From NCBI GenBank assembly GCA_030630935.1, contig DAOVMD010000106.1, positions 1 to 8,593 of the forward strand: a stretch of 8,593 nt of DNA, read 5' to 3'. This document shows, one piece after another, positions 1-8,563 of the stretch. The position numbers were made by a program, and so were the translations under genes. Under the pieces are notes generated by a model, which saw only the letters and a program-made list of their open reading frames with translations, was not told the origin of the DNA and ran no database searches. Every line of letters starts with the position of its first letter. Position 1 is the stretch's first letter. This DNA is from Candidatus Mcinerneyibacteriota bacterium. Lineage in GTDB: Bacteria > AUK180 > JAQVHJ01.

Positions 1-394
1 ACCTTTCTTCATCACCTTCAGGTTGATCCCAGGCATATCGATGATAGCCAGTATTAATTATAAGGACATCGCCTTCTTTAACTTCGACCCTGTCTTCAAT
101 ATCTTTAGAAGTATAGATACCGTAGTCTTCTGCGATATCGGAAATATCAACCACTACACCATCATGAATAAGAAGATCCAGCGGGAGACTTGCAATGTCC
201 TTACCATGAGTACAGAAATGTAATGGTCCGTCCAAATGAGTTCCCACATGATTGCTGGTTGTAATAATTTGACCATTCGCACCGGAGTGAGTTAATCTTT
301 TAAAGAACCTGGTTGTTAACGGCTCATAAGTTGGCCAAGCCGGGGTTAAGACACTAATTGGCTGTGTCAAGTCGTACATTTTGTTAAATACCAT
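1..394 (-). CDS. Cyclase / kynurenine formamidase-family metal hydrolase (N-terminal 131 residues, cut by window edge)
   Basis: The minus strand is open from an ATG at 394 to the left edge with no stop, giving 131 residues that begin MVFNKMYDLTQPI. Metal-dependent hydrolases of this family (PF04199: kynurenine formamidase, isatin hydrolase) hydrolyse N-formyl or cyclic amides. The hallmark metal-binding signature HxGTHxDxPxH is intact at residues 49-59 (H49, H53, D55, H59), and the early PAWP segment (residues 18-21) sits where family members carry an active-site tryptophan. Family proteins are usually about 210-260 residues, so roughly the C-terminal half lies outside. The first ATG is chosen because a near-perfect AAGGAGGT site lies 6 nt upstream; M6 would also be a typical family start. 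It follows the CoA-transferase gene by 18 nt and is probably the next gene of the same operon. Its substrate cannot be read from sequence; a cyclic amide or ureide is my inference from the neighbours. Confidence 0.9.
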   Translation of the reverse strand, partial: MVFNKMYDLTQPISVLTPAWPTYEPLTTRFFKRLTHSGANGQIITTSNHVGTHLDGPLHFCTHGKDIASLPLDLLIHDGVVVDISDIAEDYGIYTSKDIEDRVEVKEGDVLIINTGYHRYAWDQPEGDEER

Positions 395-400
395 AGAAAA

Positions 401-408
401 ACCTCCTT
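401..408 (-). promoter_or_regulatory. Strong ribosome binding site for the cyclase-family gene
   Basis: On the minus strand this reads AAGGAGGT, almost the full anti-16S consensus, followed by TTTTCT and the ATG at 394. It is the best Shine-Dalgarno site in the window and fixes the start of the truncated hydrolase gene. It lies in the 18-nt spacer after the CoA-transferase stop codon. Confidence 0.85.
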
Positions 409-412
409 ATTT

Positions 413-1624
413 TTAAATTACTTTTTCTTTTCTTAATCTTTTAATTTCCTTAGTTGAATAGCCTAAACTTTTCAGGATTCTTTCTGTATCCTCTCCAAGA
501 TCAGGCGCTGGTTTTTTATGCTTTTCATCTTTCAGGATATTCATTTTAATAGGGTTCCCCGCCATCTTCATTGTGCCGAAGTCCTTATCTTTTGCATCAA
601 TTATCATATTTCTTGCGAGGACTTGCGGATGAGTGAAAACCTTTTCAATATCATTAATTGTACTTGAAGGAATCTGAAGGCTATCAAAGATTTCTATCCA
701 CTGCTCAGTTGATTTTTCGTTCATAATATCATCTAATAATGGAATTAATTGTTCCAAATGCTCAGTTCTCAAGTCATTTGTCTCAAACTCCGGCATCTCC
801 AATAACGCTTCCCTATCAATTGCTTTACAAAATTTCACCCATAATTTATCATTACCAATTGCAACAATAATATGTGAATCCTTAGTACTAAATGCCTGGA
901 ACGGAGTAATTGATGGATGTCTTGTCCCTAATGGTTTTGGAGATTCCCCGGAAACAATATATCGAACAATTGCATTCTCCAGGATTGCTATTTGAGAATC
1001 AAGCATTGCCACGTCGATAAAGGCTCCTTCCCCAGTTTTCTGCCGGTTGAATAGTGCGGTCATAATTCCAATTACAGTAAATAACGCAGCTGTAATATCA
1101 CCAATTGAACTGCCAACTCTAACCGGTGGTCCATCGGGATTCCCGGTTATACTCATAAGACCACCCATCGCCTGAACTATCATATCATAGGCAGGAAAAT
1201 TTGAATAAGGCCCTGAATGCCCGAATCCGGAACACGCAGCATAGATTATTTTTGGATTAACTTTTTTCAATTCATCATAATCAATACCCAATTTTTTTGT
1301 TGTTCCGGGCCGATAATTTTCCACGACTATATCAGCATCTATAATCATCTTTTTTAGAATCTTAACTGCTTCGGGTTTCTTTAAATTTAAGGTCATACTT
1401 TCTTTGCCACGGTTAATAGAAAAGAAATATCCGCTTTTATCTTCAATAAAAGGACCAAAGTGCCTTGCATCATCCCCAACACCCGGCATCTCAACTTTAA
1501 TTACTTCAGCTCCAAGATCTGCAAGTACCATGGTAGTATATGGACCTGCAAGAACTCGAGTCAAATCAATAACTTTGATCCCCTTTAATGGCTGTTTAGT
1601 TTTGGTTGATTGCTTTTTTGACAT
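413..1624 (-). CDS. Class III (CaiB/BaiF) CoA-transferase
   Basis: This 403-residue protein matches the usual length (about 380-430) of family III CoA-transferases such as formyl-CoA:oxalate, carnitine and succinyl-CoA-dependent transferases. These move CoA between two carboxylic acids through an aspartyl-anhydride/thioester intermediate. Visible signatures are the N-terminal GIKVIDLTRVLAGP (residues 15-28), LADLGAEVIKVE (34-45), ENYRPGT (102-108), a GFGHSGPY loop (133-140), and GSSIGDITAALF (171-182), where D176 is the expected catalytic aspartate. A lysine-rich tail of about 12 residues precedes the conserved start; the first ATG is still preferred because GGAG lies 6 nt upstream. The gene begins 20 nt after the DUF1116 stop and ends 18 nt before the cyclase-family ATG, so it is operonic. 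The acyl donor and acceptor cannot be read from sequence. Its neighbours suggest a small acid released by carbamoyl transfer, such as oxamate or oxalate, but that is inference. Confidence 0.93.
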   Translation of the reverse strand: MSKKQSTKTKQPLKGIKVIDLTRVLAGPYTTMVLADLGAEVIKVEMPGVGDDARHFGPFIEDKSGYFFSINRGKESMTLNLKKPEAVKILKKMIIDADIVVENYRPGTTKKLGIDYDELKKVNPKIIYAACSGFGHSGPYSNFPAYDMIVQAMGGLMSITGNPDGPPVRVGSSIGDITAALFTVIGIMTALFNRQKTGEGAFIDVAMLDSQIAILENAIVRYIVSGESPKPLGTRHPSITPFQAFSTKDSHIIVAIGNDKLWVKFCKAIDREALLEMPEFETNDLRTEHLEQLIPLLDDIMNEKSTEQWIEIFDSLQIPSSTINDIEKVFTHPQVLARNMIIDAKDKDFGTMKMAGNPIKMNILKDEKHKKPAPDLGEDTERILKSLGYSTKEIKRLRKEKVI

Positions 1625-1644
1625 TTTTTACTCCGTAGTTGTTT

Positions 1645-2886
1645 TTACTTAATATATTTTCCAGAAAATTTAATCAATGCATCTTTAAATACTGCTTCGG
1701 GAGGAAAAGTTAATCCAGCCCCCACTTGCCCTACACCAGGGTCTTTGTGAGCAATTCCCGTATTTATCCTTGGTAGAATTCCTGTCTCAACAACCTTTGT
1801 AATATCTACACCTGTCGGAGTACCCCTAAAATTGAAAGCAGGAATTTTATATGAATCGTTTTCGCCTACAGTAATTTCATACATTTTCAGTGTATAATTC
1901 ATTGCATCTTGTACAGTTCCGCCTACAAACCCGACAATTGCGGGAGCAGCCGCCATCGCAAATGCTCCAATACCCATTGTTTCTGTAATTGTGGAATCGC
2001 CAATATCCGGATTCGCATCAGCTTCAGTAAATCCGGGTAAATATAACCCTTCCACCGGTTGCGCAGGTCCTGCAAACCATTCTCCGGGTAACCCGGCAAT
2101 TCTAATACCTAAGTCCGTACCATTTCTGGCCATAACAGTCATTATTGAACAACCTTCAGTTCCATCAATTACCATTGTCGTTGCCTTGGCTGCAGGCATT
2201 GTAAGATTCAGAAAGAAATGATCATTACCGTCAATAAACCTGAATACTTCAGCTTTTACCTTCTCTTCAATATCAAGTTCTATCAGGGTGGGTCCAATCA
2301 TTCTTAAAAATAATGATGTTCCGGCACGATTACGGTTATGCCCTTCATCACCCATCTGTAAAGCTTGTGCAATTACAGGTTTTAAGGCAATCCCGCCAAG
2401 GTTCTTTATTATTTGCTTTAGAACCGGGAAAAGTACTGTTTCCAGCCATTTTAACCTATCAATTACTTCCTGTGAATTAGCACCATACCTTAGAACTTTT
2501 CCTAACCCTTCATTTAGAGTGCAATATGCTTTATTTCCAAATGTCTTATTCTCAACTATCCAAACGGGCATACTGGGTGAAATTACCCCGGCCATTGGCC
2601 CGACAGAATCATGATGATGGCAAGGATCAAATTTAATTTTACCTGACTCGAGTAGTTTTTCCGCTTCAGAAGAATCCTTTGCCTTACCTTCATAAATAAG
2701 AGCTCCAATCATTGCTCCCTTCATCGGACCGCACATCCGAACCCAAGTGATTGGTGGTCCCGCGTGCAGAAGCATATCCTCATTAAATTCAGGAATCACA
2801 TCCCGGGCAATTGCAAGATCTATCACAACAGGTTCTGCTGAAAGGATTTTTTTTAAGGCGTCTTCGTTTATTTTATTAAAATTCAT
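1645..2886 (-). CDS. allG: DUF1116 protein, AllG/YlbE-like subunit of oxamate carbamoyltransferase
   Basis: This 413-residue protein is nearly the same length as E. coli YlbE (AllG, about 419). With FdrA (AllF) and YlbF (AllH), YlbE forms the oxamate carbamoyltransferase of anaerobic allantoin degradation, which phosphorolyses oxalurate to oxamate and carbamoyl phosphate. DUF1116 features visible here are an N-terminal NKINEDALKKIL segment, LLHAGPPI (residues 39-46), MCGPMKGAMIGALIYEG (51-67), a histidine cluster CHHHDSVGPMAGVISPSMP (89-107) and EGHNRNRAGTSLF (181-193). The glycine/alanine-rich C-terminal half is typical and I see no signal peptide. The reading frame extends upstream to a TTG at 2898, but I start at the ATG at 2886 because GGAG lies 6 nt before it; the intermediate ATG at 2892 would abut that site. 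The gene is separated from the FdrA C-terminal piece by about 160 nt and followed after 20 nt by the CoA-transferase. Function in this host is inferred from the family; the actual carbamoyl substrate may differ. Confidence 0.92.
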   Translation of the reverse strand: MNFNKINEDALKKILSAEPVVIDLAIARDVIPEFNEDMLLHAGPPITWVRMCGPMKGAMIGALIYEGKAKDSSEAEKLLESGKIKFDPCHHHDSVGPMAGVISPSMPVWIVENKTFGNKAYCTLNEGLGKVLRYGANSQEVIDRLKWLETVLFPVLKQIIKNLGGIALKPVIAQALQMGDEGHNRNRAGTSLFLRMIGPTLIELDIEEKVKAEVFRFIDGNDHFFLNLTMPAAKATTMVIDGTEGCSIMTVMARNGTDLGIRIAGLPGEWFAGPAQPVEGLYLPGFTEADANPDIGDSTITETMGIGAFAMAAAPAIVGFVGGTVQDAMNYTLKMYEITVGENDSYKIPAFNFRGTPTGVDITKVVETGILPRINTGIAHKDPGVGQVGAGLTFPPEAVFKDALIKFSGKYIK

Positions 2887-3048
2887 TTGCATCTCCAAGA
2901 TTATTAAGCATGTAAAACAAAGGAAAACTATTCAAACATTCTACTATCGCTTTAAAATTAAATATTATTATCAAACTTCCTGAATTAAAACATTCAACTC
3001 CGTATATGCTTCTATCCATTTCAATCTTCATGCAGAATTCTCCATTAT
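2887..3048 (-). other. AT-rich intergenic spacer inside the carbamoyltransferase gene set
   Basis: This is the longest stretch without a confident gene. It separates the FdrA C-terminal piece from the DUF1116 gene, whereas the other spacers in the block are 75 nt or less. I see no convincing hairpin terminator. A 51-codon reading frame runs on the minus strand from an ATG at 3031 to a TAA at 2878-2876, overlapping the first codons of the DUF1116 gene in another frame. A GGAG sits 8 nt before its ATG. The predicted peptide has no motif I recognise and an AT-driven composition, so I do not call it a gene. A TTGAAT box with AT-rich sequence downstream could be a weak internal promoter, but no consensus -10 element lies at good spacing. 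Confidence 0.5.
2893..2896 (-). promoter_or_regulatory. Ribosome binding site that decides the DUF1116 start
   Basis: The minus strand reads GGAG here, then ATGCAA, then the ATG at 2886. The six-nucleotide spacing favours 2886 over the upstream ATG at 2892 (zero spacing) and over the TTG at 2898, which overlaps the site itself. Confidence 0.65.
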
Positions 3049-3240
3049 TTATTCTCCGTCTTTAATCTTATTTATAATATCTAATAACCTCTTATCCCCA
3101 CCTGCCGGTGACCGCCAATCCATATTGATTGATTGACCTTCTGCATTCTTTATGGCATCATGGAATAATTCTACTCCAATATTTAAAACTACAAGTTTTG
3201 ATTGAAAAAGTTTATTGATCTTTTCAGTGTTTATTTTCAT
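3049..3240 (-). CDS. Detached C-terminal domain of FdrA (63 residues)
   Basis: This small protein contains LVVLNIGVELFHDAIKNAE (residues 17-35) and MDWRSPAGGDKRLLDIINKI (40-59). From memory, E. coli FdrA ends with a closely similar stretch: VINIGL..F, then W.PVAGGNKKL..LLERL. I therefore read it as the last part of FdrA encoded as its own gene. Sizes agree: 504 plus 63 residues is 567, against about 555 for intact E. coli FdrA. Its ATG overlaps the FdrA stop as ATGA, with AAGGG about 6 nt upstream inside the end of fdrA, so it is probably translated by coupling and assembles with the larger part. An in-frame TAA lies just before its ATG, so it has no longer start. It could be a natural gene split, a product also made as a fusion by slippage on the adjacent A6 run, or an artefact of one missing A. 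No independent function is known to me. Confidence 0.8.
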   Translation of the reverse strand: MKINTEKINKLFQSKLVVLNIGVELFHDAIKNAEGQSINMDWRSPAGGDKRLLDIINKIKDGE

Positions 3241-4751
3241 TTTTTACCCTTTAATATTTCGTTTGCAAAGTATATCATTGAAATGTGAGACTCAAAGATA
3301 TGTACTCCAACATCCCTAAGTTTCGATACTTGCATGTTTTTATCCTGAAAATCCAAATCAGTCCCGAGTACATACGCAAGTATAATTTTTTCACCCTTCT
3401 CCTTCTTCAAAACCGGTAATAAAGCCCCTGCCATATCTTCATGAGACCCTGATCCAAGGACAATATCTAATAAAATCACACCTGTTTCCGGATCGGTTAA
3501 CTCCTGCTCCAACTTTTCAATCCTGGATTCGGGGTCGATCATGGGATGCGGGCGGCCCCTTGTAAAGAAATCATCACCAAGGTCAATGATAGTGTTATCT
3601 TTCGAATTCAAGGGGTTTTCAAGCTTGTATTCTGGTTTATAATGAATATTTGAATAGACTTTATTCCCCGATTTCTCAAGATTCACAATCGCTTCATCGG
3701 CAAGAGTTCCACCTGTATATAAACCCCTGATAAATTTTCCGGTCTTGAGCTCTGGAATATCAAATTCTTCAAATTGAAGATTAAAAGTCTCTAAATCTTT
3801 TTTATCCCTGTTCCCTTTTAATAATTCAACAGCAAGTCCGGCAGTATGACTTAAGTTTTTAGCAATGAAAACATTATTATTATCTGACTTCAAGTTAGAA
3901 TGGATAAAGTACAGAACAAAAGGCATTTCTGATTCCTTTAACATGTTCATAATATCTTCTGCAACTTCAGGAGCCGGCGGTTTGGAGATGAGAACAATAA
4001 CTTCAGTTTCGGGATCATTTATGAGTGCGGTGATTGCAGTTTTCATTGTAATCCCGCCTACTTCAGAAGATAGGTCTCGCCCGCCAATGCCAATCGCCTG
4101 TGAAATGCCTTCACCTAAATTATGAATCTCACACGTTACAGCTTGTAACCCGGTTCCCGATGCTGAGATTAAACCAATTTTACCTTTTCGTACTTTATTC
4201 GCAAAGCCTAATGGGATTTCATTAATGATTGAAGTTCCACAATCCGGACCCATTACCATCAATCCTTTCTCAAGCGCTAATTTTTTAATTTCAATCTCCT
4301 CAGAAATTGTGACATTATCAGAAAATATCATAACATTTTTCCCTTCCCGAAGAGCATTCTTAGCTTCCCACGATGCATGCTCACCCGGAAGTGAAATTAA
4401 AATAAAGTTTATATCAGAATAAATCTTCAGGGCTCCTTCAATGGATCTCGGCGAATACTCATCACTAATACCGGAGTCCTTGAGGCTTAATATCTCATCA
4501 AATTTCTCTAAGATCACTTCGGTTGATAAGGAGTCTACTAATTCAAAATAGATAATTAAATCAAGACTCGTGGCATCTGAAAAATCCTGTTCATTTAATC
4601 CCATGTCTATCAGAAATTGCTTATTTGCATCTGAACCCATAATTAACTGGGCATCTTCAACACCTTCGTCCTTTCGTAATATACCTGAAATGCGCATTAG
4701 CTCAACAGAATCGAAGTAACTATTCTTCCTGATTAAAATATGTTTTTTCAT
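3237..4751 (-). CDS. fdrA: FdrA/AllF-like acyl-CoA synthetase-family protein, oxamate carbamoyltransferase subunit (lacks the C-terminal end)
   Basis: This 504-residue protein follows the FdrA pattern, which is related to the CoA-binding and ligase domains of succinyl-CoA synthetase. In E. coli FdrA (AllF) is a required part of the oxamate carbamoyltransferase acting on oxalurate. Conserved blocks are MGSDANKQFL (residues 38-47), FSDNVTISEEIEIK (143-156), VMGPDCGTSI (166-175), GLISASGTGLQ (193-203), AIGIGGRDLSSEVGG (219-233), SKPPAPEV (256-263), LYTGGTLADEA (344-354), IIDLGDDFFTRGRPHPMIDP (388-407) and LLDIVLGSG (427-435). The glycine-rich loops are expected nucleotide/CoA-type binding turns, and I see no signal peptide. 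The ATG lies 3 nt after the DUF2877 stop; only a weak AGG precedes it, so translational coupling is likely. The family's last 55 or so residues are missing here and appear in the next gene, which overlaps the stop as ATGA. This organism may use a substrate other than oxalurate. Confidence 0.94.
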   Translation of the reverse strand: MKKHILIRKNSYFDSVELMRISGILRKDEGVEDAQLIMGSDANKQFLIDMGLNEQDFSDATSLDLIIYFELVDSLSTEVILEKFDEILSLKDSGISDEYSPRSIEGALKIYSDINFILISLPGEHASWEAKNALREGKNVMIFSDNVTISEEIEIKKLALEKGLMVMGPDCGTSIINEIPLGFANKVRKGKIGLISASGTGLQAVTCEIHNLGEGISQAIGIGGRDLSSEVGGITMKTAITALINDPETEVIVLISKPPAPEVAEDIMNMLKESEMPFVLYFIHSNLKSDNNNVFIAKNLSHTAGLAVELLKGNRDKKDLETFNLQFEEFDIPELKTGKFIRGLYTGGTLADEAIVNLEKSGNKVYSNIHYKPEYKLENPLNSKDNTIIDLGDDFFTRGRPHPMIDPESRIEKLEQELTDPETGVILLDIVLGSGSHEDMAGALLPVLKKEKGEKIILAYVLGTDLDFQDKNMQVSKLRDVGVHIFESHISMIYFANEILKGKK

Positions 4752-4754
4752 AAC

Positions 4755-5669
4755 TTATTGCCTGATTTTTAAATTATAATTTTCAAGAAATAACAAAACT
4801 CCTGTAAATAAATCTTCCCCTGAACTGTGACCATACTCTTCTATCTTAAGGAATTCTTTCTTAAATCGCAGAGTTGAATAATTAAATATCAGCTTAAATA
4901 TTCTTATTAGAATCCATGGTAAATACCCCTTCTGTATTCCGGATAATGTATGTGACGATATGCTTGATAAATACTTTTTTACCTCGTTTAATTCGGAAGT
5001 TATGCCATATGTATTATAGTATTGCTTTAATAATAAAGCGGTTGTAATAAATCCAATGAAGAGGTCGTCTCCGGATGGTGTTAATCCTGGACCTAAACCT
5101 ATTATTGATAAGATATTCTTTTTAATTAAGTCAGAGTCTTTAAGCTTAATTGAAACACGGATTCTATTAAAGAAATCCAGGTATTTCTCCTGTAAACGAT
5201 TCTCGAAATTAGAATATGTATCAATTGTTCTTTTGAATAAGTAAACCTTGAGAAGGGAGGATTTCAACGGAATTTGAGTTAGTTCTTCTCGAATTTTTCT
5301 AATATTTTTATTTACTTTCTCAAAATCCAAGCAGCTGATCTGTAAAATATCGAAACTATTATCAACGATTTCAGCATCTGAATAATCCAACTCCAGGTTC
5401 CGGAAGAATATTTTATTATCCTTAACTACTCCAGACTTCCCTAACTTTTCTATAAAAATATCTTTTAATCTTCTTCCATTTTCAATGTACATTCCATTTG
5501 TAGGTAAGTACTTATTATTAAAGTTAATGTTTAACATATCTTGGTTATTTAGTATTATATTGGTCGAATTAATATAAACCTTTTGTATTCTTGCGGTGTA
5601 ATATGTATTTGAATTAATTGAGAAAAGTTTTGTAACAGTTGTTACCGGAAAGGAATATTGTTTTCTCAT
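4755..5669 (-). CDS. allH: DUF2877 protein, AllH/YlbF-like subunit of oxamate carbamoyltransferase
   Basis: This 304-residue protein carries the DUF2877 hallmark GLGPGLTPSGDD at residues 191-202, followed by a hydrophobic helix (FIGFITTALLL), and a second conserved glycine motif, GHSSGEDLFTG, at 280-290. In E. coli the DUF2877 protein YlbF (AllH) works with FdrA and YlbE in oxamate carbamoyltransferase. The N-terminal 180 residues are poorly conserved, rich in Lys, Asn and Ile, and recognisable only by position. The protein is somewhat longer than E. coli YlbF (about 271). I see no signal peptide; the hydrophobic stretch in the C-terminal half is too short and polar-flanked to call a membrane protein. 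The ATG has GGAG 5 nt upstream and follows a probable terminator hairpin. It ends 3 nt before the fdrA ATG. E. coli has the order fdrA-ylbE-ylbF; here the DUF2877 gene comes first. A partly independent start of transcription is possible but no good promoter is visible. Confidence 0.88.
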   Translation of the reverse strand: MRKQYSFPVTTVTKLFSINSNTYYTARIQKVYINSTNIILNNQDMLNINFNNKYLPTNGMYIENGRRLKDIFIEKLGKSGVVKDNKIFFRNLELDYSDAEIVDNSFDILQISCLDFEKVNKNIRKIREELTQIPLKSSLLKVYLFKRTIDTYSNFENRLQEKYLDFFNRIRVSIKLKDSDLIKKNILSIIGLGPGLTPSGDDLFIGFITTALLLKQYYNTYGITSELNEVKKYLSSISSHTLSGIQKGYLPWILIRIFKLIFNYSTLRFKKEFLKIEEYGHSSGEDLFTGVLLFLENYNLKIRQ

Positions 5670-5697
5670 TATACTCCGAATAAAGTGTTCAATCTAG

Positions 5698-5731
5698 AAA
5701 AAAGTTGGGTGGTACAAATCAAGCACCACCC
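5698..5731 (-). terminator. Probable intrinsic terminator or attenuator after the molybdenum subunit gene
   Basis: On the minus strand GGGTGGT pairs perfectly with ACCACCC (5731-5725 with 5713-5707). An inner G-T wobble and a C-G pair extend the stem to 9 bp around a TTGATTT loop. The stem is followed by AAC and then six T residues (5703-5698), as in a rho-independent terminator in the direction of transcription. The three-base gap before the T run makes it imperfect. It begins 11 nt after the hydroxylase stop and lies about 28 nt before the DUF2877 ATG, leaving almost no room for a separate promoter. Partial read-through is therefore likely. Confidence 0.7.
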
Positions 5732-5742
5732 GATATAAATAA

Positions 5743-8079
5743 TTATTTTTTCTTTTTATCTTTAATATGTTTCAGAATATTTTCGGATGTTAACGGTAGA
5801 TCTTTTATCCTGACTCCAATTGCGTCAAATATTGCATTTGCCAGAGCAGGTGGAATTGATATCATAGGATGTTCCCCTATCGCTCTTGCTCCAAAAGGTC
5901 CGCCTTCATCAGGGGTCTGAACAAAAATAGATTCAACTTTATCAGGGATATCAGCCGCTGTTAAAATTTTGTAATCTACGAAGCTTGCATTTTGAAGTTT
6001 TCCATCTTTATACTTTAACTCTTCAAGAACTGCTGAACCCAGTCCCTGGATAATTCCACCGATAACCTGACCCCGGGCAGTTGAAGGATTTATAACTGTT
6101 CCCAGGTCAAATGCCCCAAGAAGTTGAAGGATTTTCATTTCACCAGTATCCGTATCCACTTCAACCTCCGCTCCTTCACAACCGAAAGTCCAGTCCGCCG
6201 CAGCATGACCCTGACCGGTTTTCTCATCAAGGTTTGTCAGGTAAGGAGTAAATGTTCCAGTCGCCTGAATTGGTCCCCCAATCGTATGTCCATCTGGATA
6301 TTGATATCCCATAATAATTTTTGGGAGCGGGATATTTTTCGATGGGTCATTTTTTATAAAGACTTTCTCGCCGTCAACTTCCAGGTCAACCGGGTCAACT
6401 TCGAGAACTTGTGATGCAATTTCTTTAATTTTTATATGAGCTAAGTCAACCGCATTTATAATTGCATTCCCGGTTGCCCAGGTTATCCTTGACGCAACAG
6501 TCTGCCATTCATAAGGTGAGAAATCGGTATCGGGTAAGCCTGACGGTTGAATCTTGTCAAAGGACATCTTCAATCTCTCAGCAGCAATTTGAGTTAAGGC
6601 GGTTATACACCCTTGCCCAATTTCCATACCTGAGAACTGAAGACCAACAGTAGCGTCTTCATTGAATTTTATTACCGCAGCTGAAGTTGCATTTGTCGGC
6701 ATTGCAGGAGCTTTTTCCAAAACTGCAAGCCCCATGCCCCGTTTAATATTCTTTGGAAGGGTTTTATCTTTCTTCTTCCTGTTCTTCCAGTCAAGTGCAT
6801 CAGCAACTTGATTTATGCACTCGATCATATTACCGGTATGCTCTGTAATCTCTTCACCCATTGAATTTATTGAGCCTGGTTTTAAAACATTTAATCTTCT
6901 GAACTCAGCCGGGTCCATCTTCAATTCATGTGCAATTATATCCATCTGTGATTCAATCGCCCAATGTAATTCACCATGGCCAAAACCTCTGAATGCTCCA
7001 CCCACAAGGTGATTTGTATAAACACCATAGGTATCCCCTTTGATGTTTTCTATGTCATAAGGACCGGGACAGGTATATCCTGCTGCACGTACGACATTTG
7101 TACCGTACTCAGCATACGCACCACCATCAAAGACATACTCAATCTCTTCCGAAATAATTCGACCGGCTTTTGTCACACCTGTCTTAACTCGAGCTCTCAG
7201 CCCCTGCCGGACAGTTGTTCCAAGAAAAACTTCTTCTCTTGAGAAGATTAGTCTAATCCATTTACCTTTAATTTCATTTGATAATGCTACAACTAATGGT
7301 TCCATGTTTATTCCGGCTTTACCGCCAAATCCACCACCTACATAAGGTACAATTACTCTGACATCTTTATGCGAAAGTTTGAAAGCGTATGCAATTAAAT
7401 TTCTAAGGGTGAACGGAGATTGTGCAGATGAATAAACGGTTAATTTACCGTTTTGCTCCCAACGTGCAATTGCGCCATGGGGCTCCATCGGAACATGCTG
7501 AATTTGGGGAAGCCTGAATTCATTCTCAAAAATTAAATCAGCATTCTTAAACCCTTCTTCCACATCACCTTTTCGTAATTTGAAATGATTAAATATATTC
7601 GTATCCTTCTTCGGATAATAAATGGGGAGATATTCATAATTAATTAAATCCGGATGAACAAGGGTTTTCTCGCCATTTAAAGCTTCTTCAATCGTGTCTG
7701 TATAATCAAGTTCTTTATATTCAACTTCTATAAGATCAAGGGCTTCTTGGGCGATATCTTCAGAGATCGCTGCAACTGCCGCAACCGGTTCACCCATAAA
7801 CCTTACTTTTCCCGTAGCAAATACCGGACGGTCAACAAGATATAATCCCATTTTATATGGACATTTCCCGGCATGTGTCACGGCAAGGACTCCGGGAAGT
7901 TTCTCTGCTTTACTAACATCTAAATTCAGAATCTCTGCATGCGGATGCGGACTGCGTAATACCTTACCAAATAACATTCCCGGAAATGTAATATCCCCGA
8001 TATATTGAGCTGAGCCCGTAGCTTTATAAAATGCATCATAGCGGGGAATATCTTTCCCAATTACCTTATATTCACTCAT
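5743..8079 (-). CDS. Xanthine dehydrogenase-family molybdopterin-binding (large) subunit
   Basis: This 778-residue protein has the full length of stand-alone molybdenum subunits (about 750-800). It binds the molybdopterin cytosine dinucleotide (or molybdopterin) cofactor and hydroxylates an aromatic or heterocyclic carbon with water as oxygen source. The N-terminal a/b-hammerhead domain covers residues 1-125 (GDIxxPGMLFGKVLRSPHPHA; FMGEPVAAVAA). Cofactor and active-site motifs are PMEPHG (197-202), GGGFGGK (248-254), GGAFRGFG (360-367), GQG (488-490) and AIGEHPMIS (733-741), where E736 is the expected catalytic glutamate. AFRGFG separates it from the AYRCSFR loop of aerobic CO dehydrogenase. 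Position 255, just after GGK, is Ala where bovine xanthine oxidase has purine-binding Glu802; R331 seems to match Arg880. The start codon is 1 nt after the iron-sulfur subunit stop, and AAGGAG in the last codons of that gene serves as its ribosome site. The C-terminus is lysine-rich. Substrate is undetermined; a nitrogen heterocycle is likely. Confidence 0.95.
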   Translation of the reverse strand: MSEYKVIGKDIPRYDAFYKATGSAQYIGDITFPGMLFGKVLRSPHPHAEILNLDVSKAEKLPGVLAVTHAGKCPYKMGLYLVDRPVFATGKVRFMGEPVAAVAAISEDIAQEALDLIEVEYKELDYTDTIEEALNGEKTLVHPDLINYEYLPIYYPKKDTNIFNHFKLRKGDVEEGFKNADLIFENEFRLPQIQHVPMEPHGAIARWEQNGKLTVYSSAQSPFTLRNLIAYAFKLSHKDVRVIVPYVGGGFGGKAGINMEPLVVALSNEIKGKWIRLIFSREEVFLGTTVRQGLRARVKTGVTKAGRIISEEIEYVFDGGAYAEYGTNVVRAAGYTCPGPYDIENIKGDTYGVYTNHLVGGAFRGFGHGELHWAIESQMDIIAHELKMDPAEFRRLNVLKPGSINSMGEEITEHTGNMIECINQVADALDWKNRKKKDKTLPKNIKRGMGLAVLEKAPAMPTNATSAAVIKFNEDATVGLQFSGMEIGQGCITALTQIAAERLKMSFDKIQPSGLPDTDFSPYEWQTVASRITWATGNAIINAVDLAHIKIKEIASQVLEVDPVDLEVDGEKVFIKNDPSKNIPLPKIIMGYQYPDGHTIGGPIQATGTFTPYLTNLDEKTGQGHAAADWTFGCEGAEVEVDTDTGEMKILQLLGAFDLGTVINPSTARGQVIGGIIQGLGSAVLEELKYKDGKLQNASFVDYKILTAADIPDKVESIFVQTPDEGGPFGARAIGEHPMISIPPALANAIFDAIGVRIKDLPLTSENILKHIKDKKKK

Positions 8080-8080
8080 T

Positions 8081-8563
8081 TTATTGCTCCTTATTTGATT
8101 TCATTTCTTTTGCAGCTGCGGTAATCGCTTCAATTATTTGAACATAACCTGTACAGCGGCAAAGGTTTCCACTAATCGCAACCTTAATCTCGTCTTCGGT
8201 CGGGTCAGGATTTCTCTTTAAGAATTCATAGGTCGTTAGAATCATTCCGGGTGTACAGAACCCGCATTGGATTGCACCTTTCTCAATAAATTGCTTCTGG
8301 ATAGGATGTAAATTATCCCCATCTGATAACCCTTCAATCGTAAGGATCTCAGAACCATCCGCTTCAACCGCTAAAACCATACAGGAATTAATAGCTTTTC
8401 CATCCATAATAATTGTACAGGCCCCGCATTCGCCCGCACCACATCCTTCTTTTACACCTATATATCCTAGATCGTCGCGTAATACACTTAGAAGACTGCG
8501 CTTTGATTGAACTCTAACGTCATAGGAGATCCCGTTTACTTTTAATTTAATTGTGTGTTCCAT
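8081..8563 (-). CDS. Xanthine dehydrogenase-family [2Fe-2S] iron-sulfur (small) subunit
   Basis: This 160-residue protein has the typical length of the small electron-transfer subunit of molybdenum hydroxylases, carrying electrons from the molybdenum centre through two [2Fe-2S] clusters. The N-terminal plant-ferredoxin-like domain holds Cys41, Cys46, Cys49 and Cys61 (GCGAGECGACT, then NSC). The C-terminal all-helical domain holds Cys100, Cys103, Cys135 and Cys137 (QCGFCTPGM and GNLCRCTGY). All eight ligands are present, so both clusters should form. The start at 8563 has AGGAG about 9 nt upstream. There is no signal peptide, so the enzyme is probably cytoplasmic. It is translationally coupled to the molybdenum subunit 1 nt downstream. 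The usual third subunit, an FAD protein, is not in the window; it may be upstream of 8593 or elsewhere. Confidence 0.96.
   Translation of the reverse strand: MEHTIKLKVNGISYDVRVQSKRSLLSVLRDDLGYIGVKEGCGAGECGACTIIMDGKAINSCMVLAVEADGSEILTIEGLSDGDNLHPIQKQFIEKGAIQCGFCTPGMILTTYEFLKRNPDPTEDEIKVAISGNLCRCTGYVQIIEAITAAAKEMKSNKEQ

Follow-up and report, generated by a model that had tools for sequence, protein, structure and literature searches.

A putative operon for oxidative uracil breakdown with energy conservation in a Candidatus Mcinerneyibacteriota bacterium

Genes resembling those of the oxamate carbamoyltransferase AllFGH can lie beside genes of a molybdenum (Mo) hydroxylase and a cyclase-family hydrolase, which raises the question of what compound such an operon degrades. 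The case considered here is an 8,593-base stretch of DNA from a Candidatus Mcinerneyibacteriota bacterium, called the window below, which is the entire contig C80 of a fragmented metagenome-assembled genome (MAG) of 3.16 Mb and 80% completeness. Its genes form one co-directional block on the minus strand in the order iron-sulfur (FeS) subunit, Mo subunit, AllH, AllF, a 63-amino-acid (aa) open reading frame (ORF), AllG, CaiB-type CoA-transferase and cyclase (Table 1). Protein families were assigned with Pfam and NCBIfam profiles judged by their curated cut-offs, and all named Pfam families in the window proteins score above them. An initial annotation, made from the letters alone, had placed the AllFGH-type genes (FdrA, DUF1116, and DUF2877) in one block with a Mo hydroxylase, a CaiB protein and a cyclase, and Pfam confirmed all of these families. 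It had also proposed ring oxidation, ring opening, carbamoyl phosphorolysis and CoA activation, a scheme that the conserved gene set supports in its general form. Its candidate substrates, parabanate and oxalurate, were not supported, as the transporters, salvage genes and decarboxylases linked to related operons are of uracil and (methyl)malonyl-CoA type and the AllG clade lies apart from that of Escherichia coli. The window is likely to hold most of an operon for the oxidative breakdown of uracil, perhaps also thymine, with conservation of energy.

In the proposed pathway a Mo/FeS/FAD hydroxylase would oxidize uracil to barbiturate, and the PF04199 cyclase-family hydrolase would open barbiturate to ureidomalonate (N-carbamoyl-malonamate) in place of the unrelated classical barbiturase. 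AllF, AllG, and AllH, together with the 63-aa mini subunit, would then take the place of ureidomalonase and transfer the carbamoyl group to phosphate, yielding malonamate and carbamoyl phosphate. Carbamate kinase would form ATP from the carbamoyl phosphate, a nitrilase-family or amidase-family enzyme would convert malonamate to malonate, and the CaiB CoA-transferase would convert malonate to malonyl-CoA, which a Na+-pumping decarboxylase would decarboxylate in some relatives. We infer each of these reactions, and the sharing of one substrate between the window and its orthologues, from the gene content, conservation and linked pyrimidine genes described below. On balance, a wider statement is also favored, namely that this would be a widespread oxidative uracil pathway of anaerobe-type bacteria with PF04199 as a second barbiturase, a four-component AllFGH acting on ureidomalonate, one ATP per uracil, a sodium gradient in some lineages, and, in one lineage or more (locus L120), an aldehyde ferredoxin oxidoreductase-type protein, probably a tungsten protein, replacing the Mo enzyme.

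The gene cluster recurs across many bacterial phyla. In a set of 80 loci, chosen only for having the AllG proteins most similar to that of the window, the cyclase is present in 69, with a median gap of 57 bp between cyclase and AllG, and each of the remaining 11 has incomplete flanks on its contig. The Mo subunit was seen in 49, and CaiB and an NCS2 permease in 41 each, so that the recurrent pairing of DUF1116 with PF04199 and CaiB anticipated by the initial annotation is borne out. Since the cyclase accompanies AllG in so many of these loci, and no locus without it has full flanks, the arrangement is far beyond chance. As a sample not chosen for resemblance to the window, 386 diverse genomes were also searched for PF06545, and 45 of them carry AllG, in a total of 46 loci. 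The cyclase is present in 26 of these loci (23 of them also with the Mo subunit), absent from 11 that have 3 kb or more of sequence on each side, and censored in nine. AllB, AllC, and AllD occur in none of the 26 cyclase loci of this survey. Likewise, no allantoinase, allantoate amidohydrolase or ureidoglycolate dehydrogenase gene was found in 95 cyclase-linked loci, about 91 without duplicates (L139–L141 repeat L015, L014, and L013, and L100 repeats L043), and no allantoinase exceeds its cut-off in the MAG; the reported lack of classical allantoin genes was thus correct. In the AllG tree, whose deep order is limited by long branches, the cyclase-linked proteins make up two neighboring groups of 82 and 9 rows, both with good support, together with L120. 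The window AllG lies inside this clade, and the E. coli AllG and those from allantoin-type or other contexts lie outside it. The tree requires three label changes, compared with 17.7 expected on shuffling.

The substrate is indicated mainly by permeases and salvage genes. The best E. coli match of the NCS2 permeases in cyclase-linked loci, a few of which are fragments, is UraA for 33, RutG for eight and XanQ for three. Two of them exceed the cut-off of 477 bits set for the curated uracil permease model (574.7 bits in L027 and 574.5 bits in L078), and that of L034 has the same model as its best match, below the cut-off. Residues E241, Y288, and E290 of UraA are present in 46 of 46 readable linked permeases; in E. 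coli XanQ, the positions of Y288 and E290 are occupied by F and Q. Uracil is hydrogen-bonded by E241 and E290 in UraA (PMC5539350). In Maledivibacter halophilus M1 (L059), a cytosine permease (520 bits, cut-off 326) and a cytosine deaminase (541 bits, cut-off 483) come just after the cyclase and CaiB genes. In the survey locus L120, from a small genome, AllH, AllF, AllG, an aldehyde ferredoxin oxidoreductase-type protein, a cytosine-deaminase-like protein (420 bits, cut-off 438), the cyclase and uridine phosphorylase (293 bits, cut-off 280) stand in a row. Amidohydrolases related to cytosine deaminase, below its cut-off, are also present in L044 and L048. Together with the (methyl)malonyl-CoA decarboxylase sets nearby, the UraA-type permeases, cytosine permease and deaminase and uridine phosphorylase suggest uracil as the substrate; on the best reading, the linked genes point to uracil and not to parabanate or oxalurate. 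As a separate observation, a PreA/dihydroorotate-dehydrogenase-like protein with an Fe-S domain (L059:17737-18876) adjoins the cytosine genes of M. halophilus, and may mean a parallel reductive step.

The product side is represented by several gene sets. An MmdA-type carboxyltransferase, a biotin carrier and the beta subunit of a Na+-pump decarboxylase lie near AllF, AllG, and the cyclase in L024, L026, and L030, and parts of such a set lie at contig ends or nearby in L022, L019, and L028. The predicted activities of these sets fit malonyl-CoA or methylmalonyl-CoA, and the search of the cyclase-linked loci turned up no homologue of oxalyl-CoA decarboxylase. An amidase or nitrilase-family enzyme often accompanies CaiB, as would be expected if malonamate needs deamidation. 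Carbamate kinase is encoded within the operon in L034, L076, L078, L088, and L090. Fifteen of the 80 nearest loci lack CaiB, and there a thiolase and a GNAT-fold protein, in most cases joined by a DUF35 protein, stand instead of CaiB and the amidase (L027, L033, L043, L049, L051, L055, L078, L087, and others). CaiB and thiolase never occur together among the 80 loci. The GNAT-fold protein matches no Pfam family, and its predicted model has a mean confidence (predicted local distance difference test, pLDDT) of 87.

The window encodes Mo and FeS subunits and its relatives also an FAD subunit, which together may form a Mo/FAD/FeS uracil dehydrogenase, the role proposed here. The best NCBIfam model for the Mo subunit is XdhA. 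Against the xanthine dehydrogenase models (XdhA, PucD, XdhB, and the Se-dependent enzyme) it scores at most 559 bits, its score with XdhA (cut-off 780), where all cut-offs are at least 780, and therefore it is not a xanthine dehydrogenase by the curated criterion. The FeS subunit falls below the cut-off of every NCBIfam equivalog, and the nearest solved chain to the Mo subunit is the alpha subunit of 4-hydroxybenzoyl-CoA reductase. YqeB, YqeC, XdhC, and MobA, which are tied to the maturation of molybdenum (often selenium-dependent) hydroxylases, are encoded in many Clostridial loci. The aldehyde ferredoxin oxidoreductase-type protein of L120 (L120:10778-12673), probably a tungsten protein, stands where other operons have the Mo hydroxylase.

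The first 131 residues of the cyclase, as preserved in the window, are 78% identical to the complete homologue in L015. All cyclase members compared keep the metal motif H-x-G-T-H-x-D-G-x-x-H, and identity to solved PF04199 members is about 20%. The AlphaFold model is of modest confidence (pLDDT 77), with a weak region around the motif; its structural matches are isatin hydrolases and kynurenine formamidases. The arylformamidase (kynurenine formamidase) model TIGR03035 gives only 45 and 57 bits with the full-length cyclases of L015 and L059, against a cut-off of 223.

Of the carbamate kinase and FAD subunit that the initial annotation had proposed to seek beyond the contig, the kinase is present in the MAG on another contig (C321:1-4803, L094), beside an ornithine/aspartate carbamoyltransferase-like gene; the FAD subunit was not found in the MAG (the best match is only 35% identical). 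Searches of the MAG for methylmalonyl-CoA decarboxylase gave distant carboxyltransferase matches only. Several observations weigh against uracil as the substrate in the window. No uracil permease match was obtained in the MAG, at its 80% completeness, or in its near relatives G002–G005. The loci nearest to the window contain no pyrimidine-specific genes, so its substrate is deduced from orthologues. The MmdA-type genes occur in few loci and score below the MmdA model cut-off. Finally, no solved or characterized PF04199 barbiturate hydrolase was found.

These observations bear on the suggestion that one and the same module handles several ureido acids, working on uracil in some lineages and on a different N-heterocycle in that of the window. 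The want of UraA-type permeases in the window-class genomes is in keeping with it, as are the varying downstream sets (CaiB with amidase or nitrilase; GNAT-fold protein, thiolase and DUF35; decarboxylase). The suggestion is nevertheless improbable, as the cyclase, AllFGH and Mo proteins encoded in the window belong to the same clade as their counterparts and are closely orthologous to them (AllG is 74% identical to those of L013–L015), and uracil could derive from nucleosides or RNA turnover.

It is equally doubtful that a hydantoin-type ring is oxidized to parabanate, which the cyclase would open to oxalurate for AllFGH to cleave into oxamate and carbamoyl phosphate, with CaiB handling oxalate as oxalyl-CoA. 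Phosphorolysis of oxalurate by AllFGH is established in E. coli (PMC11326118), and CaiB has CoA:oxalate CoA-transferase (NF008511) as its best NCBIfam model at 378 bits, below the cut-off of 522, a result that favors a C2 acid. In addition, the modeled cyclase fold resembles isatin hydrolase, whose substrate likewise has adjacent carbonyls, and an opening of this kind would fit parabanate equally well. However, the linked genes for transport, salvage and decarboxylation indicate uracil and malonyl-CoA, an oxalyl-CoA decarboxylase is not among them, and the separate AllG clade is a further argument against oxalurate. Mo hydroxylases usually act on unsaturated carbons adjoining nitrogen, such as C6 of uracil, and the sp3 carbon of hydantoin is not their usual target. 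A purine route, in which the Mo enzyme would be a xanthine dehydrogenase and the remaining proteins would degrade a purine-derived ureido acid, is the least probable. In its favor, xanthine dehydrogenase models give the best or good scores with the Mo and FeS subunits, and several Clostridial loci encode PucR regulators, which as a rule belong to purine catabolism. Against it, the Mo subunit lies far under every cut-off, the linked permeases are of uracil and not xanthine type, and allantoin genes are absent from cyclase-linked loci.

If uracil is the substrate, AllFGH would act on ureidomalonate, which is oxalurate plus one CH2. AllF, AllG, and AllH are contiguous in the window, and the C-terminal domain of FdrA is also present, as the 63-aa ORF. 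This eighth gene was missed in the initial annotation; its ATG overlaps the AllF stop codon (ATGA). AllF matches the E. coli FdrA structure 3DMY (E 3e-74), and AllG has the solved relative 3CLQ (E 6e-131). The mini-subunit domain, of about 60 aa, is present in 120 of 124 loci: at the AllG N-terminus in 79, free-standing in 32, in a 167-codon ORF in one and at the AllF C-terminus in eight, including E. coli (none in four). No Pfam model matches the domain, which the AllFGH enzyme probably requires as its fourth component. A conserved protein of about 360 aa with a weak match to PRTase-CE (phosphoribosyltransferase-like) is also encoded in or near the AllFG operon in L120 (L120:8204-9286), L107, L109, L121, L126, and L136.

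Classical oxidative pyrimidine degradation proceeds from uracil via barbiturate and ureidomalonate to malonate and urea by means of barbiturase and ureidomalonase (PMC3758960). The proposed pathway shares its substrate, initial oxidation, both intermediates and malonate end product. It differs in that PF04199, and not the AtzD/barbiturase family, would open the ring, the carbamoyl group would be kept as carbamoyl phosphate instead of being lost as urea, malonate would be activated with CoA, and the carriers are mostly anaerobe-type lineages. The barbiturase family AtzD/TrzD (PF09663) gave no match in 27 AllG genomes, and as no control genome gave one either, its absence is not proven. With the oxamic transcarbamylase AllFGH and kinase AllK of E. 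coli (PMC11326118), the window shares the AllF/AllG/AllH set, the FdrA C-terminal domain, here as a separate gene, and the proposed phosphorolysis of an N-carbamoyl amide acid; it differs in that allantoin genes are missing, the partners are a cyclase and a Mo hydroxylase, AllG belongs to a separate clade and the proposed substrate is ureidomalonate and not oxalurate. Kynurenine formamidase and isatin hydrolase share with the cyclase the PF04199 fold and the motif H-x-G-T-H-x-D-x-x-x-H, but no tryptophan or indole genes were seen in the linked loci. The reductive uric acid cluster of E. coli, with the carbamoyltransferase YgeW and the kinase YqeA, is likewise a system of anaerobic nucleobase breakdown in which a ureido group yields carbamoyl phosphate and ATP, but its carbamoyltransferase family, purine substrate and reductive chemistry are different (PMC12507026). 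In the portions consulted of a report on nitrifiers, allFGHK also occurs without upstream allantoin genes and sometimes near a cytosine permease; there it accompanies biuret and triuret genes and is read as serving oxalurate use, and no Mo hydroxylase-cyclase operon is described (PMC12625717).

No matching paper was found for the pathway, which appears new as a combination; the search covered open-licence PMC literature, so a recent account elsewhere is possible. If correct, the proposal would explain genetically how Spirochaetes, Clostridia, and numerous uncultured lineages, in which the known barbiturase route was regarded as rare (PMC3758960), could break down pyrimidines oxidatively, add a second barbiturate-opening enzyme family, and widen the reach of AllFGH from allantoin to pyrimidines. 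Uracil would be fermentable with ATP made directly, and annotations as oxamate carbamoyltransferase, acyl-CoA synthetase and xanthine dehydrogenase would be corrected. The pathway is testable in the named carrier strain M. halophilus M1.

Table 1. Genes of the window, with the profile matches on which they were assigned.
Feature	Position	Strand	Match
2Fe-2S subunit of molybdenum hydroxylase	8081..8563	-	Fer2_2 115 bits, Fer2 31 bits
Molybdopterin subunit of hydroxylase; proposed uracil hydroxylase (uracil to barbiturate)	5743..8079	-	MoCoBD_1/2
AllH (DUF2877) transcarbamylase subunit	4755..5669	-	PF11392 57 bits, cut-off 25
AllF (FdrA) subunit	3237..4751	-	Ligase_CoA/CoA_binding; NF004760 FdrA 473 bits, cut-off 433
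63-aa mini subunit, free-standing FdrA C-terminal domain	3049..3240	-	matches E. coli FdrA C-terminus
AllG (DUF1116) subunit	1645..2886	-	PF06545 329 bits, cut-off 27
Class III (CaiB/BaiF) CoA-transferase; proposed malonate CoA-transferase	413..1624	-	PF02515 CoA_transf_3 432 bits
PF04199 cyclase-family hydrolase, first 131 aa; proposed barbiturate ring-opening enzyme	2..394	-	PF04199 96 bits

The cyclase gene is cut by one contig end, and its remaining 3' part is absent from the MAG assembly. Contig C137, which carries a nitrilase homologue 54% identical to that of L015, was rejected as a continuation of the operon for want of a cyclase remnant upstream. At the other end the FeS gene stops 30 bases short, and in relatives the FAD subunit sits exactly where the window contig ends beyond this gene. 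The AllG start is probably ATG 2886, which is preceded by GGAG; the mechanical ORF begins at TTG 2898.

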